From: Actinomycetota bacterium
Lineage (GTDB): Bacteria; Actinomycetota; Actinomycetes; S36-B12
DNA: 34,498 nucleotides
Direction of reading: 5' to 3'
NCBI GenBank assembly: GCA_947472655.1
Contig: CANJCG010000004.1
Span: 1-34,498 of the forward strand
In this document: positions 8,230 to 25,980 of the stretch, piece by piece
Position numbering within the stretch: the first letter of the stretch is position 1
Layout of the letters: each line of letters begins with the position of its first letter
Position numbers and translations under genes: made by a program
The notes under the pieces: model-generated
The model's database searches: none
What the model was told of the DNA's origin: nothing
The model's input: the letters and a program-made list of their open reading frames with translations, nothing else

Positions 8230-8262
8230 AAATTGCTCCGTTAGACTGCGATTGCTGATTGA

Positions 8263-8460
8263 CCCCACGCGGGAGAGTCTTTCCATCATTGCCAGTGATG
8301 CTAGGCGCCGAAGGAGCAAATCTCCCCGACAACCTCTCAGGCAAAAGGACCGCATGGGGAAGGCACCTCTGGAAGGTGGGCCTCGGCCCCACCGACGGTG
8401 AAACTGATGCTTTGCATCGGGAAACTCTCAGGTCGCGATTATCGCGGGAGACAGAGGGGG
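8263..8460 (+). ncRNA. Tandem glycine riboswitch (two aptamers) upstream of gcvP
   Basis: Aptamer 1: GGGAGAG...GCGCCGAAGGAGCAAATCTCCCC...CTCTCAGGCAAAAGGACCGC, P1 ccccacgcgg (8263-8272)/ccgcatgggg (8350-8359) with one mismatch. Aptamer 2: P1 cctctg (8366-8371)/cagagg (8452-8457), CCCACCGACGGTGAAA, GGGAAACTCTCAGGTCGCGATTATCGCGGGAGACAGAGGGGG. Confidence 0.93.
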
Positions 8461-8464
8461 AGAT

Positions 8465-8496: not shown

Positions 8497-11355
8497 ATGT
8501 CCGCGCAAGAGTTCACTTTCGTTGATCGTCATATTGGCCCCGACGAAACTGCCATCAATTACATGTTGCGTGCTGTCGGATACGAGAGCCTCGATGCCCT
8601 CACTTCTACGGTGGTACCTGAGGTAATCGCGTGGACACAATCTTTGAATCTGCCAGAGGCACTCGACGAAGCTGCAGTCCTTGAAGAGTTACGGGTTCTA
8701 GCTTCTAAAAATATTATGCAAACGAGCATGATCGGTTTGGGTTATTACGACACATATACGCCAGCGGTCATTCGACGTAATGTTTTGGAAAACCCTTCTT
8801 GGTACACGGCGTACACGCCCTACCAACCAGAAATCAGTCAGGGCCGACTAGAAGCCCTGCTGAATTTCCAAACAATGATCGAAGATCTCACGGCGCTCCC
8901 TGTAGCGGGCTCATCGTTGCTGGATGAGCCGACAGCTGTAGCCGAGGCAATGACTCTGGCTGTGCGCCAGGGGCCTAAGAACGTCGCGAGATTCCTCGTG
9001 GACTCGGACACCCACCCTCAAACTCTTGCGGTCTTACATACCCGCGCAGAACCAATCGGGGTTGAACTTGTTCTCGCAGATCTTGAACGAGAATTTCCGG
9101 CAGGCCCCTGGTCGGGTGTGCTCGTGAGTTACCCGAGCTCCTCAGGAGTCGTTAAAAATATCAAAAAAACCATCGATGAAGCTCATACTCATGGCGCGAT
9201 CGCAGTGGTGGCCGCTGATTTGTTAGCACTGACCTTGTTGGCGCCACCAGGAGAGTTGGGTGCTGATGTGGTTGTTGGAAGTGCCCAACGCTTTGGTGTT
9301 CCGATGGGCTTTGGTGGCCCGCATGCGGGATATATGTCTGTACGTGCAGGGCTGGAACGCTCTCTACCTGGTCGCCTCGTAGGTGTCAGTATTGATGCCG
9401 ATGGCAATTCCGCGTATCGCTTGGCTTTACAGACTCGAGAACAACATATCCGCCGAGACAAGGCAACAAGCAATATCTGCACCGCGCAGGTATTACTCGC
9501 GATTATTTCGGCGATGTATGCAAGCTATCACGGGCCAAGCGGACTCACCGCGATCGCGCAAAGGGTCAATCGGGCCGCACTGACCTTGCGCGCGGGTCTG
9601 AAACAGCTTGGCGCGAAAACGGGGGATTCACCGATCTTCGACACGGTGCAATGGTCAGTGGTCGGGCAAGCACAAAATATTGCAGACGCTGCTGCCAAAG
9701 CTGGGATCGCAATTCGCGTCGTCGACCAAGACACAGTCTCAGCGTCCACCGATGAGGTAACCAAGAATGAACATATCGAAGCGCTTTGGCGCGCGACTGA
9801 TGAGAAGTCAACGCTCGCATTCGTAGATGTATCTACGTCTATCGATGCATTTTCAACACGCACATCGCCATTCCTATCCCACCCTGTCTTTACAACTCAT
9901 CACAACGAAACTTCAATGATGCGTTATCTGCGAAAACTAGCTGATCTAGATATAGCTCTTGATCGCGCGATGATTCCGCTCGGTTCATGCACCATGAAAC
10001 TCAATGCCGCAACGGAGATGGAAAGCATTACTTGGCCCGAATTTGCAGGAATGCATCCGTTCGCTGAAATCCATAACGCTCGAGGTTCAATTGAACTCAT
10101 ACAAAACTTAGAAGGGTTCCTCGCAGAGGTGACTGGCTACGACGCCGTCAGCGTGCAGCCCAATGCTGGGTCCCAAGGTGAATTCGCAGGACTTCTAGCG
10201 ATTCGCGGTTATCACCTCGCTCGGGGTGATGCGCATCGCGATGTCTGCTTAATACCTAGCAGCGCCCACGGCACAAACGCAGCTAGTGCGGTGATGGCTG
10301 GGATGAAAGTCGTCGTGGTCAAATGTGACGAGCAAGGCAATGTCGATGTTATTGATCTTCAGGAGAACATCGCAAAGCACGCAACTCACCTGTCGGCGTT
10401 GATGATCACCTATCCGTCGACTCACGGAGTCTTCGAGACGGCGGTCACTGACATCTGCGCGATGGTTCACGATGCCGGAGGGCAGGTATATGTAGACGGG
10501 GCCAACTTGAACGCTCTTGTTGGCCTAGCAAAACCAGGCAAATTCGGCGCCGACGTTTCTCACTTGAATCTACATAAAACTTTTTGTATCCCGCATGGTG
10601 GTGGAGGCCCAGGGGTTGGGCCGGTGGCCGTACGCGGGCATCTTGCACCGTATTTGCCATCGCACCCTTTGCGCCCTGAAGCTGGTCCGCTGGGGCGCGG
10701 CCACGACGATGGGGGAGTAGGTCCTGTAAGTGGAGCACCTTGGGGCAGTGCCGGGATTCTGCCTATCCCTTATGCCTACATCAGACTCATGGGAGCCGAT
10801 GGGCTCAAGCGCGCAACGCAGGTTGCGATTTTGTCGGCAAATTACATTGCTGCGCGACTCAATGCTCATTTTCCCGTTCTCTACACAGGTAGCGGTGGCT
10901 TAGTTGCCCACGAGTGCATCTTGGATGTGCGTCCCATCACTGCTGCCTCGGGAGTCAGCGTTGATGACATAGCCAAGCGTTTAATGGATTACGGCTTTCA
11001 TGCTCCAACGATGTCATTCCCGGTTGCGGGGACTTTGATGATTGAACCAACCGAGTCAGAGGACCTAGCTGAAATCGACCGGTTCATTGACGCAATGATT
11101 GCGATCAAAGGCGAAATCGATCAAGTGATGGCAGGGGAGTGGCCAATAGACGAAAGCCCGCTACGCAACGCACCTCACACCGCAGACTGCGTTATCGGTG
11201 ACTGGGACAAACCGTACCCAGCGCGATTGGGCGCATACCCCACGGGCAAGGTAACGCCTTCAAAGTATTGGCCTCCGGTCAGACGTATTGACGGTGCTTT
11301 TGGTGATCGTAATCTTGTGTGTAGCTGCCCAACACCGGAAGAGATGGCTGTTTAG
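8497..11355 (+). CDS. gcvP: Glycine dehydrogenase (decarboxylating), P protein
   Basis: 952 aa, [11 protein letters not shown]-terminus, PLP-lysine region [29 protein letters not shown]. Confidence 0.97.
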
Positions 11356-14084: not shown

Positions 14085-14633
14085 CTACTTCGTCCGTGTA
14101 TCGATGATTGCAAAGAGATGAACAAGTGCCTCGCTGAAAGCTTCGTATGTTTCTAATTCCAAGATTTCTTGGCGAGTGAACCATCCGGCAGCCTTATTTT
14201 CCCATTGCAAGTTCTCAGGAACGGCGAAGCGATCCCCTACTTGTACGACCACCGTGGTGTACGCCCAAGTCTCGTGAACATGCTCGGCATGATGACCCAA
14301 GACATCGACATCAATGTCTACCTCGATTTCTTCACGGAATTCCCTTAACGCACCTTGGACGGGTGTCTCCCCCGCTTCCAGAGCGCCACCAGGTAGAGCC
14401 CACTGATTACGGCCCCCTTCGACGTTGTCGCCACGCTGGGCCAGAAAAAAGGTCTCAAAACCTTCAGGATCCACATGTCGAATAAAGACACCTGAGGCGC
14501 CGTTTAGACCCCACCGGCGCTCCCCATTGGGGAAAAACACGAATCCATCGCCGCTAGCGCCCCAGGGCACCGGAACCAATACCGGCTCGCCTTTATTGAC
14601 CGCTTGTGCAGAAAATTCTTGATGCCACTCCAT
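14085..14633 (-). CDS. NUDIX hydrolase
   Basis: Nudix box [23 protein letters not shown] (one deviation, E for the late G); start ATG at 14633 preferred. Confidence 0.88.
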
Positions 14634-14667: not shown

Positions 14668-14689
14668 TGTCAGTTACGACCGATACGGT
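14668..14689 (+). promoter_or_regulatory. Candidate RecA-NDp / PafBC-dependent promoter
   Basis: TGTCAGTT-N8-TACGGT versus published consensus TGTCRGTG-N8-TANNNT; -10 ends 6 nt before the ATG of the small protein gene. Confidence 0.5.
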
Positions 14690-14695
14690 TAACCC

Positions 14696-14917
14696 ATGAA
14701 TCGCATCAGGGTCCTCAGCCTCGCGCTGGCCGGTCTCACCACTGGTGTGTTGCTGCTTTGGGCAAATGTGGAGCCCACAGGTCCCCTGATGAATGCAACG
14801 TGGCTAATTTTTGGGATTTCAGGAGCGTTCATAGCCATTTGGCTGGCCTGGCGCCCTCGTAGTCATTCATTTCATGAGGTCGACGGCGAAATGGAGCATA
14901 GTTACACCGAACGGTGA
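14696..14917 (+). CDS. Small predicted two-TM membrane protein, unknown function
   Basis: 73 aa: MNRIRVLSLALAGLTTGVLLLWANVEPTGPLMNATWLIFGISGAFIAIWLAWRPRSHSFHEVDGEMEHSYTER; two hydrophobic helices and a charged tail; promoter-like element abuts the start. Confidence 0.65.
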   Translation: MNRIRVLSLALAGLTTGVLLLWANVEPTGPLMNATWLIFGISGAFIAIWLAWRPRSHSFHEVDGEMEHSYTER

Positions 14918-14986: not shown

Positions 14987-15013
14987 GGAACCCAAGGCGC
15001 ATTTTCTTCGTCC
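14987..15013 (+). promoter_or_regulatory. Candidate ECF-type sigma promoter for rbpA
   Basis: GGAAC (14987-14991) - 17 bp - CGTCC (15009-15013), upstream of rbpA. Confidence 0.4.
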
Positions 15014-24109: not shown

Positions 24110-25024
24110 TTAAGAATACGACGTATACGCGGCAGCGGCTGCATCCGCCACCCATTTGCGAGCTTCTCTGGGAGATTGCACAGTCAATGAACCTCCCATA
24201 GAAAGCACCACCTGAACTAGCCAATGAGGATCGCGAAAGGCCAATTCAGCTTCGATGGTCCCATCTGGGCCATCTTGGATGTTCGCGAAGGGGTAGGTGT
24301 CTAAGGCCCAGCGGGCGGTACTCGCCAAGGTCACTGCGGCACGGGTCTCTTGTGAAATCGGTGTCTGCATACCCATAGAGGTCGGCATTGGTTCACCAAG
24401 GAGTGCCGTGATGATGCGATCAACCCGGAAGGTCCGGATGGCTTGTGCTCGTTCACAGAAGCCTTCCAGGTACGTGTGACCTCCGGAGGTGACAACGCTG
24501 TGTGGCAAAACGATTCGATCGGTAACAAGGTCGTCAGTTCCAGCCGCATAAATGATTGATAGCTTTCTGTTCTCACGCAAAGCTGCCTCGATCATGTGCG
24601 TGGTTGCATCCGAAACCCCACTGTCGATCACCATGGTGGATGCCGTGTTCGTTTCGAGACTGCCTTCAAGTCGTTCAATCAAGGCAACGAGCGTTTTTCG
24701 ATCATGTGAGCCAGGCACCTGAATCAAGAGCCTTAACGCCACAAGAAGCGCCATCACTTCATCGCCCGAGAGACGCAGAGGACGGTCGAGAGTTTGTGGA
24801 TCAACGACATGAATACGTCCATCATCCCAGAACTGAATGTCCACGAGTTGATCTGGCATGTGCCCGGGTAATCCGCAGACCACCAGGAGCCATAAATCTT
24901 TTTCACATTGTTCAGCGGATATTCCAAAATGATCCGCGGCAACGTCAATACTGACACCATCATGATTGATGAGCCACGGAACCATTGTCATGAGTCGAGA
25001 CAACCGCGTACTCGATGTCGTCAC
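24110..25024 (-). CDS. pafC: PafC, WYL-domain transcriptional regulator
   Basis: HTH-WYL architecture; overlaps pafB stop by 4 nt; paired location in the Pup-proteasome locus. Confidence 0.88.
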
Positions 25025-25980
25025 GTTGCGTCCTGGTGATCGCGTAGAATTGTGTGCAGGGAATCACGAACCATCAGAAGAATTTCGTTTGGCTCAATGA
25101 CTTTGACACCACCGCCCGCCGCACAGATTTGTGAGACGAGCACATCGGCGGACACCGCTGAAATCGTGATCTCTGCATTTTCAAAGGGACTTATATTCGC
25201 TCCGTTGGCTTGCCGCAGCGCTGCACCGTGGCCGCCCTGGATCCAAACGGTTGCAGTGACCGGACGCGCAACGTCTTCACCGCGGACGACCTCAGTGAGA
25301 TCGAGATCAGATGGGCGAGCAACTTCTAGGCTTTTAGCCGTTACCGTCACAGAGCCCGTGATCCGTGAAACGCGAAAAGTGCGCCGTTCACCCCGATCAT
25401 GATCGTGACCTACGAAATACCAGTGCCCGAGATGGGCTACTAGGCCCCAAGGGTCGACAATGCGACGTGCAGGTTGCGGATCTGATCTGCCTTGATATTC
25501 GAAATTGACCACATGTTGTTCACGCAGCGCGGCCATAAGAGGTAATAACGCAGCATCAGTAGCGGTGACTCTGACCGATTCAAGACCTTGAACCGCTGGT
25601 GCATCGCCACTAATGGATTCGATCTTTCGTATGGCGGTAGTAGCGGGAGCCTCTAAAATCGCTTCCTGCCAGGTGGCAGCTGCCAGCGCTAAAAGGGCCA
25701 ACTCATCAGCCGAGAAATTCAGATCTTCAGGTGTGGTCTGCCGAGCAATGAGATAGCCCTCGACTTCGCCATTCACATCAAGCACAGTTTCAACCGGTAT
25801 ACCCATACCGCGTAGCTCATCTTTATCTCTCTCGAACATCCGCTCAAAGGCAACATCGCTTGCGTCAACGTCATACCCTGCAACGAGCCGACGGATATCT
25901 GATCGAGGAATGGCACGAGACGCACCTAAGAGACAAAAAACTACATTGAGTAAGCGTTCGGTGCGATCAACTCTTGCCAA
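25021..25980 (-). CDS. pafB: PafB, WYL-domain transcriptional regulator
   Basis: VDRTERLLNVVFCLLGASRAIPRSDIRRLVAGYD... HTH; FEYQGRSDPQPARRIVDPWGLVAHLGHWYFVGHDHDRGERRTFRVSRI. Confidence 0.9.
   Translation of the reverse strand: MARVDRTERLLNVVFCLLGASRAIPRSDIRRLVAGYDVDASDVAFERMFERDKDELRGMGIPVETVLDVNGEVEGYLIARQTTPEDLNFSADELALLALAAATWQEAILEAPATTAIRKIESISGDAPAVQGLESVRVTATDAALLPLMAALREQHVVNFEYQGRSDPQPARRIVDPWGLVAHLGHWYFVGHDHDRGERRTFRVSRITGSVTVTAKSLEVARPSDLDLTEVVRGEDVARPVTATVWIQGGHGAALRQANGANISPFENAEITISAVSADVLVSQICAAGGGVKVIEPNEILLMVRDSLHTILRDHQDAT

Follow-up and report, generated by a model that had tools for sequence, protein, structure and literature searches.

A predicted PafBC-type leaderless promoter preceding an undescribed two-helix small protein in an uncultured freshwater actinobacterial lineage

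The window, i.e., the whole stretch of 34,498 nucleotides that was analysed, belongs to a 1.66 Mb MAG of 182 contigs and 74% completeness, and the comparisons were made with drafts and MAGs. A small open reading frame (ORF) coding for 73 amino acids lies between a divergent NUDIX hydrolase gene and, 137 bp downstream on the same strand, an rbpA paralogue that is the second RbpA of the genome. The features are presented in Table 1. An earlier reading of the letters without database searches (the sequence-only reading) had placed the NUDIX start 62 bp from the ORF, and the ATG at 14633 is indeed its most likely start; its assignment of PafBC to 24110-25980 is borne out by Pfam domains. Of 18 genomes examined for PafC, 17 contain it. 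Elsewhere in the window, tandem glycine riboswitch aptamers (Rfam RF00504, 65 and 33 bits) occupy 8260-8461, just upstream of a gcvP-like gene at 8497.

Table 1. Features of the window that bear on the 73-aa ORF and its promoter.
Feature	Position	Strand	Basis or remark
Divergent NUDIX hydrolase gene	14085..14633	-	Pfam NUDIX 1e-13; synteny
PafBC-type -26 element TGTCAG	14668..14673	+	-28..-23 with ATG = +1
-10 hexamer TACGGT	14684..14689	+	-12..-7
Predicted leaderless ORF, 73 aa, two predicted TM helices	14696..14917	+	ORF call, conservation, hydropathy, AF2
Putative ECF-sigma-type rbpA promoter	14987..15012	+	GGAACC 14987-14992, CGTC 15009-15012; boxes conserved in 9-genome alignment
rbpA paralogue, second RbpA of genome	15055..15420	+	Pfam RbpA 4e-32
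pafC (HTH_PafC, WYL, WCX)	24110..25024	-	Pfam
pafB (WYL, weak WCX)	25021..25980	-	Pfam

The order NUDIX(-), ORF(+), rbpA(+) is kept in the genus genomes with enough sequence; the contig of G004 begins just upstream of the ORF and carries the ORF and rbpA. Two rbpA genes are present in all but two of 59 genomes, and the genus-type NUDIX gene was not found beside the second rbpA in 20 other genomes of the family, two or three of these stretches being short. In the genus, the NUDIX gene has a TANNNT-like box a few nucleotides before its start, without TGTCAG. Given this box just before the start codon, the NUDIX gene may also be leaderless.

PafBC is best understood in mycobacteria. It works through the RecA-NDp motif (PMC6789036): PafB reads a -26 motif, ssDNA activates PafBC, and sigma-A RNA polymerase is redirected to promoters with the -26 motif (PMC11804915). 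The forward strand reads TGTCAGTT ACGACCGA TACGGT at 14668-14689, followed by TAACCC and by the ATG at 14696 (exact match), just as the sequence-only reading had described it (TGTCAGTT-N8-TACGGT, 6 nt before the ATG). With the A of this ATG taken as +1, TAACCC fills -6 to -1, and TGTCAG would coincide with the -26 motif read by PafB, whose position is taken from PMC11804915. This position of the -10 hexamer would put +1 at the start codon, as in a leaderless mRNA. The exact LexA/SOS box GAAC-N4-GTTC is absent from the entire window.

The pattern TGTCRGTK-N8-TANNNT has a single match in the window, both strands considered, where shuffles lead one to expect 0.05, which agrees with the earlier by-eye claim that this is the sole correctly spaced motif. 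The leaderless form TGTCRG-N10-TANNNT-N6-RTG also has a single match on both strands (0.01 expected). When one mismatch is tolerated, the window holds 2 motif matches against 1.35 expected, and the source genome alone presents 2 matches against 3 for the reversed pattern, i.e., no enrichment. The motif in one genome is modest evidence, and its significance comes from its being conserved across genomes.

Clear orthologues of the 73-aa protein are confined to the genus in a protein search of 59 relatives, and a single-protein search of GTDB genomes with the 73-aa ORF gave no match. Within the genus, the ORF and the promoter are present in all nine genomes, one motif being slightly degraded: eight of the orthologue promoters contain exactly TGTCAG-N10-TACGGT, and the remaining one contains GGTCAG-N10-TAGGGT. 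In the -26 element, GTCAG is invariant in the nine genomes and the leading T is kept in eight; in the -10 element, TA and GGT are invariant and the C is found in eight; and the spacer holds an invariant CG in the nine-genome alignment. The 22 motif columns have a mean identity of 7.5/9, compared with 4.7/9 for the 45 nt upstream. From TANGGT to the ATG or GTG, the distance is 6 nt in eight genomes and 7 nt in one, such that the leaderless geometry claimed for the window recurs in all nine. A lack of ORF and motif in relatives, which would have counted against the sequence-only reading, is thus not what was observed. In five of the genus genomes, the tighter string TGTCAGT-N9-TACGGT has a single occurrence, each time at the 73-aa ORF. 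The core conserved in the genus is TGTCAG-N10-TANGGT, whereas positions 7-8 of the first half are free. Since these two positions vary freely, the one deviation from the mycobacterial consensus that the sequence-only reading had pointed out, a T for G at the last base of the first half, is of no consequence here.

Two hydrophobic helices, as proposed for the protein, were found by both the hydropathy scan and an AF2 model, at residues ~3-24 and ~30-52, the model having low confidence (mean pLDDT 66, pTM 0.31). The N-terminus is positively charged, and the loop is short. The charged C-terminal tail that had also been described is variable, and in several orthologues it is shorter. According to the positive-inside rule, both termini would be cytoplasmic. 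Besides the start M, the invariant residues in the genus alignment are S8, L9, A12, L19, A47, A51 and W52. Searches against Pfam, NCBIfam and PHROGs yielded no match above threshold; sub-threshold matches were dropped as typical of short hydrophobic proteins. The product is best described as a predicted, previously undescribed small two-helix membrane protein.

Close pairs of orthologues present dN/dS of about 0.2-0.5 by Nei-Gojobori counts, with dS near saturation in distant pairs (dN/dS values of 0.35/1.21 for G000-G008, 0.32/1.61 for G004-G005 and 0.39/2.08 for another pair). Given that dN is well below dS in close pairs, the ORF is translated and under purifying selection. This bears on the question of whether the promoter serves mainly the downstream rbpA paralogue, with the ORF as a short leader cistron. 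The distance and shared strand of the two genes agree with such an arrangement, as does the position of rbpA, which directly follows the ORF in each of the nine genus genomes. However, rbpA has a conserved putative ECF-type promoter of its own, GGAACC-N16-CGTC, between the two genes, which argues that it is independent of the PafBC promoter, and the second-genus homologues described below do not adjoin rbpA. Because of this separate promoter and the selection on the ORF at the protein level, a leader-cistron arrangement was set aside as very unlikely. In eight of the nine genomes, a GGAATAT box is found upstream of the rbpA promoter.

The motif is shared with recA and with repair genes, as the sequence-only reading had suggested should be looked for. 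In the genus, the recA promoter is TGTCAGAG-N8-TAGGTT, with a 5' leader, and its variant in G003 is TGTCACAG. In the four genomes whose recA upstream DNA was read, a LexA-like CGAAC-N4-GTTCG box lies beyond this promoter on its upstream side; together with the PafBC-type motif, this corresponds to the double control by LexA and PafBC known for mycobacterial recA (PMC8223512). A TGTCRG-type element with a TANNNT -10 at fixed spacing is hence found in the window, in the nine orthologues and at recA. In the source genome, this class includes recA (with its leader), pcrA, dnaX, a CxxC protein and the 73-aa ORF, and the genus adds uvrB, xseA and a second UvrD-type helicase.

Across the nine genus genomes, TGTCRG-N10-TANNNT-N6/7-RTG yielded 42 sites, compared with 5 for the reversed pattern. 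This control is imperfect, as reversal removes the real -10 and with it the ordinary -10/leaderless component, and the gene identities are a stronger argument than the site counts. Genes were mostly named by reading their sequence, with representatives checked against NCBIfam and Pfam. The sites precede the 76-aa CxxC protein (9), the 73-aa ORF (8), pcrA/uvrD1 (5), the second UvrD-type helicase (5), dnaX (3), DNA methyltransferases (3), xseA (1), uvrB (1), a DEDD exonuclease (1) and others (6). Altogether, 36 of the 42 lie before one of the two conserved small proteins or before genes with a part in repairing, replicating or modifying DNA. In the second genus, also represented by nine genomes, 63 leaderless sites were found against 7 for the reversed pattern, and the targets of the 29 sites read include uvrB, pcrA, dnaE, dnaB, a DEDD exonuclease and the CxxC protein.

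These identities also bear on a rival reading, in which the motif would be a chance match or a housekeeping promoter of the ordinary kind with no link to DNA damage. In its favour, the motif by itself carries little weight in one genome, and TANNNT boxes often lie just before a start codon, as one does at the NUDIX gene. Against this, conservation in nine of nine genomes with exact spacing and the nature of the genes behind the 36 sites make this reading very improbable. The earlier assignment to the RecA-NDp/PafBC type is strengthened by the identical motif and spacing before recA and many repair genes of the genus, and, on the joint reading, it is highly likely that 14668-14695 is a PafBC-type promoter giving a leaderless mRNA within a damage regulon. 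PafBC would be the regulator of the 73-aa ORF, with predicted induction by damage and a predicted transcription start at the ATG.

Other members of the promoter class were also noted. In each of the nine genus genomes, a leaderless PafBC-type promoter precedes the gene of the CxxC protein (64-86 aa, M[IN]IDC..C..A...C.DCVVSVL.G), which has no Pfam or NCBIfam match. It is found at G000:C60 (L161:1529-1765), and counterparts occur in the remaining eight and in several second-genus genomes. In G004, its gene is ~0.4 kb from, and divergent to, the DEDD exonuclease gene, which has its own motif copy. At G000:C11 (L118), TGTCAG-N10-TATGGT/TAAGGT is followed by a leader of ~200 nt and then by the gene of a secreted-looking protein, MR.AHK.A......PMAAPA.A, with similar sites in G005, G006 and G008; L118 and L121 have no Rfam match at gathering level. 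Leaderless PafBC-type promoters also precede MmeI-like restriction-modification genes and the gene of a C5-type DNA methyltransferase, at G002:C11 (L150), G003:C103 (L177) and G005:C1:255387 (L156). In the second genus, genes that on reading resemble DUF222/13E12 HNH-type repeat proteins have such promoters in several copies per genome (L252, L261, L249, L245, L254 and others).

A profile of the nine proteins matched candidates in the second genus with E-values of 1e-5 to 1e-3 and 22-29% identity, values tempered by the ease with which two-helix proteins match each other, and a second-round profile added three more in that genus. These proteins are probable distant homologues of the 73-aa protein. 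Across the order (119 genomes) and the class (395 genomes), the profile search produced no further convincing homologue; matches in other genera with E-values of ~1e-3 lay inside long ORFs and were counted as chance, and one inside a 1022-codon frame was discounted as a homologue. Where read, the second-genus candidates occupy another neighbourhood, not next to rbpA, three of the four read being between MBL-fold RNase-like and DUF2461-like genes (named by reading).

Six second-genus candidates could be assessed for the motif, the upstream DNA of G087 leaving its contig. The candidate of G033 has a perfect leaderless site upstream; in G025, the motif is exact, and ~24 nt separate its -10 from the start. 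In G013, TGTCAC replaces TGTCAG; in G095 and G093, the motif lies ~95-100 nt upstream; and the upstream DNA of the G090 candidate contains no motif. We count this pattern as supportive rather than conclusive. Given the conservation of promoter and ORF, the company of repair genes and the motif upstream of most second-genus homologues, the 73-aa gene is very probably a core member of the PafBC regulon.

In the mechanism we propose, ssDNA at damaged DNA would activate PafBC, which would let the housekeeping RNA polymerase start at the promoter formed by the -26 TGTCAG and the -10 TACGGT. The transcript would begin at or within one base of the A of ATG 14696, a start at this ATG making the mRNA leaderless, and it would code for the two-helix protein of the inner membrane. 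Since the PafBC-type promoter is the same, the protein would be made upon damage alongside RecA, PcrA/UvrD, DnaX and other regulon members. It might then act as a membrane damage-checkpoint effector that binds the divisome or cell-wall machinery and delays division. The protein is a good candidate for membrane action, perhaps on cell division, under DNA damage; division inhibition is our leading guess, put forward tentatively and by analogy with DidA, which delays division in Caulobacter under the WYL activator DriD. The sequence-only reading had likewise offered damage induction, and possibly division inhibition, as an inference.

Many small membrane proteins act as accessory tuning subunits. 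Under the same promoter, the 73-aa protein could likewise tune a transporter, a protease or a redox/cell-wall enzyme when the cell is under genotoxic or oxidative stress and have no part in a checkpoint, as this common mode of small membrane proteins and the neighbouring NUDIX enzyme and stress-type rbpA would suggest. Oxidative-stress genes also occur within PafBC regulons (PMC8223512). However, no partner gene is conserved, and the different neighbourhood of the second-genus homologues speaks against a fixed partner; such a role is conceivable without being probable.

An effector that acts on the membrane itself, lowering its potential or forming pores under damage so as to slow growth or limit phage, with TisB-like logic or as a minimal SLATT-like protein, would also suit the promoter. 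Two helices without other domains, the restriction-type methyltransferases in the same promoter class and weak matches of 4 of 13 family members to NCBIfam SLATT_1 (best E-value 0.005, 16.7 bits against a cut-off of 41) are in its favour. Yet matches so far under the cut-off are typical of any two-helix protein, the 73-aa gene adjoins no recognised defence gene or antitoxin, and few residues are conserved, which makes this role rather doubtful. Returning to division control, the broader proposal is that of a PafBC-controlled, LexA-independent membrane checkpoint in freshwater actinobacteria, the counterpart of DriD-DidA, whose 73-aa effector would block division or depolarise the membrane during repair; drawn by analogy, it is a possibility we rate as unlikely to be right.

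A study of Streptomyces reports that the PafBC motif known from mycobacteria does not seem to be kept there and that known damage-induced division inhibitors are missing (PMC9380542). The present results suggest that a PafBC-type motif and a coherent repair regulon, much of it apparently leaderless, can be read from the sequence of an uncultured freshwater lineage, and that the two undescribed conserved small proteins in it are candidates for the factor, so far missing, that would couple the cell envelope of Actinobacteria to DNA damage. TGTCRG-N10-TANNNT-N6/7-RTG offers a simple pattern for finding such genes in raw sequence.

In comparison with the mycobacterial RecA-NDp promoters (recA P1 and others), the promoter studied here presents the same spacing of TGTCRG and TANNNT and the same -26 position, and the genus also has in common with mycobacteria the recA and repair targets and a genomic pafBC. 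Unlike in mycobacteria, the bases after TGTCAG are free, with T, A, G and C all occurring, many sites have a leaderless geometry in which 6-7 nt separate the -10 from the start codon, and the target is a new predicted small membrane protein.

SidA, SosA, YneA, DivS and ChiZ, small damage-induced membrane proteins, are under LexA/SOS control in their hosts. The 73-aa protein resembles them in logic only: the window has no LexA box, no domain is common to them, and two helices are predicted, where SidA has one. The DriD-DidA system of Caulobacter crescentus also resembles the present case in logic, in that an ssDNA-responsive WYL activator, as DriD is described in PMC12340889, drives a membrane protein of about 70 aa (DidA, 71 aa; PMC4211646) outside LexA. 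DidA, whose partner is FtsN, has one TM helix, and the likeness to the 73-aa protein is again one of logic. Given its two predicted helices, and with no sequence relation in evidence, the protein was kept out of the DidA/SidA family; it was also kept out of SLATT, due to the sub-cut-off scores, and out of the LexA regulon, due to the missing SOS box. What is new, as far as prediction goes, is a small-protein member of a known regulatory kind and, for an uncultured lineage, the outline of a PafBC-type regulon whose sites are largely leaderless.
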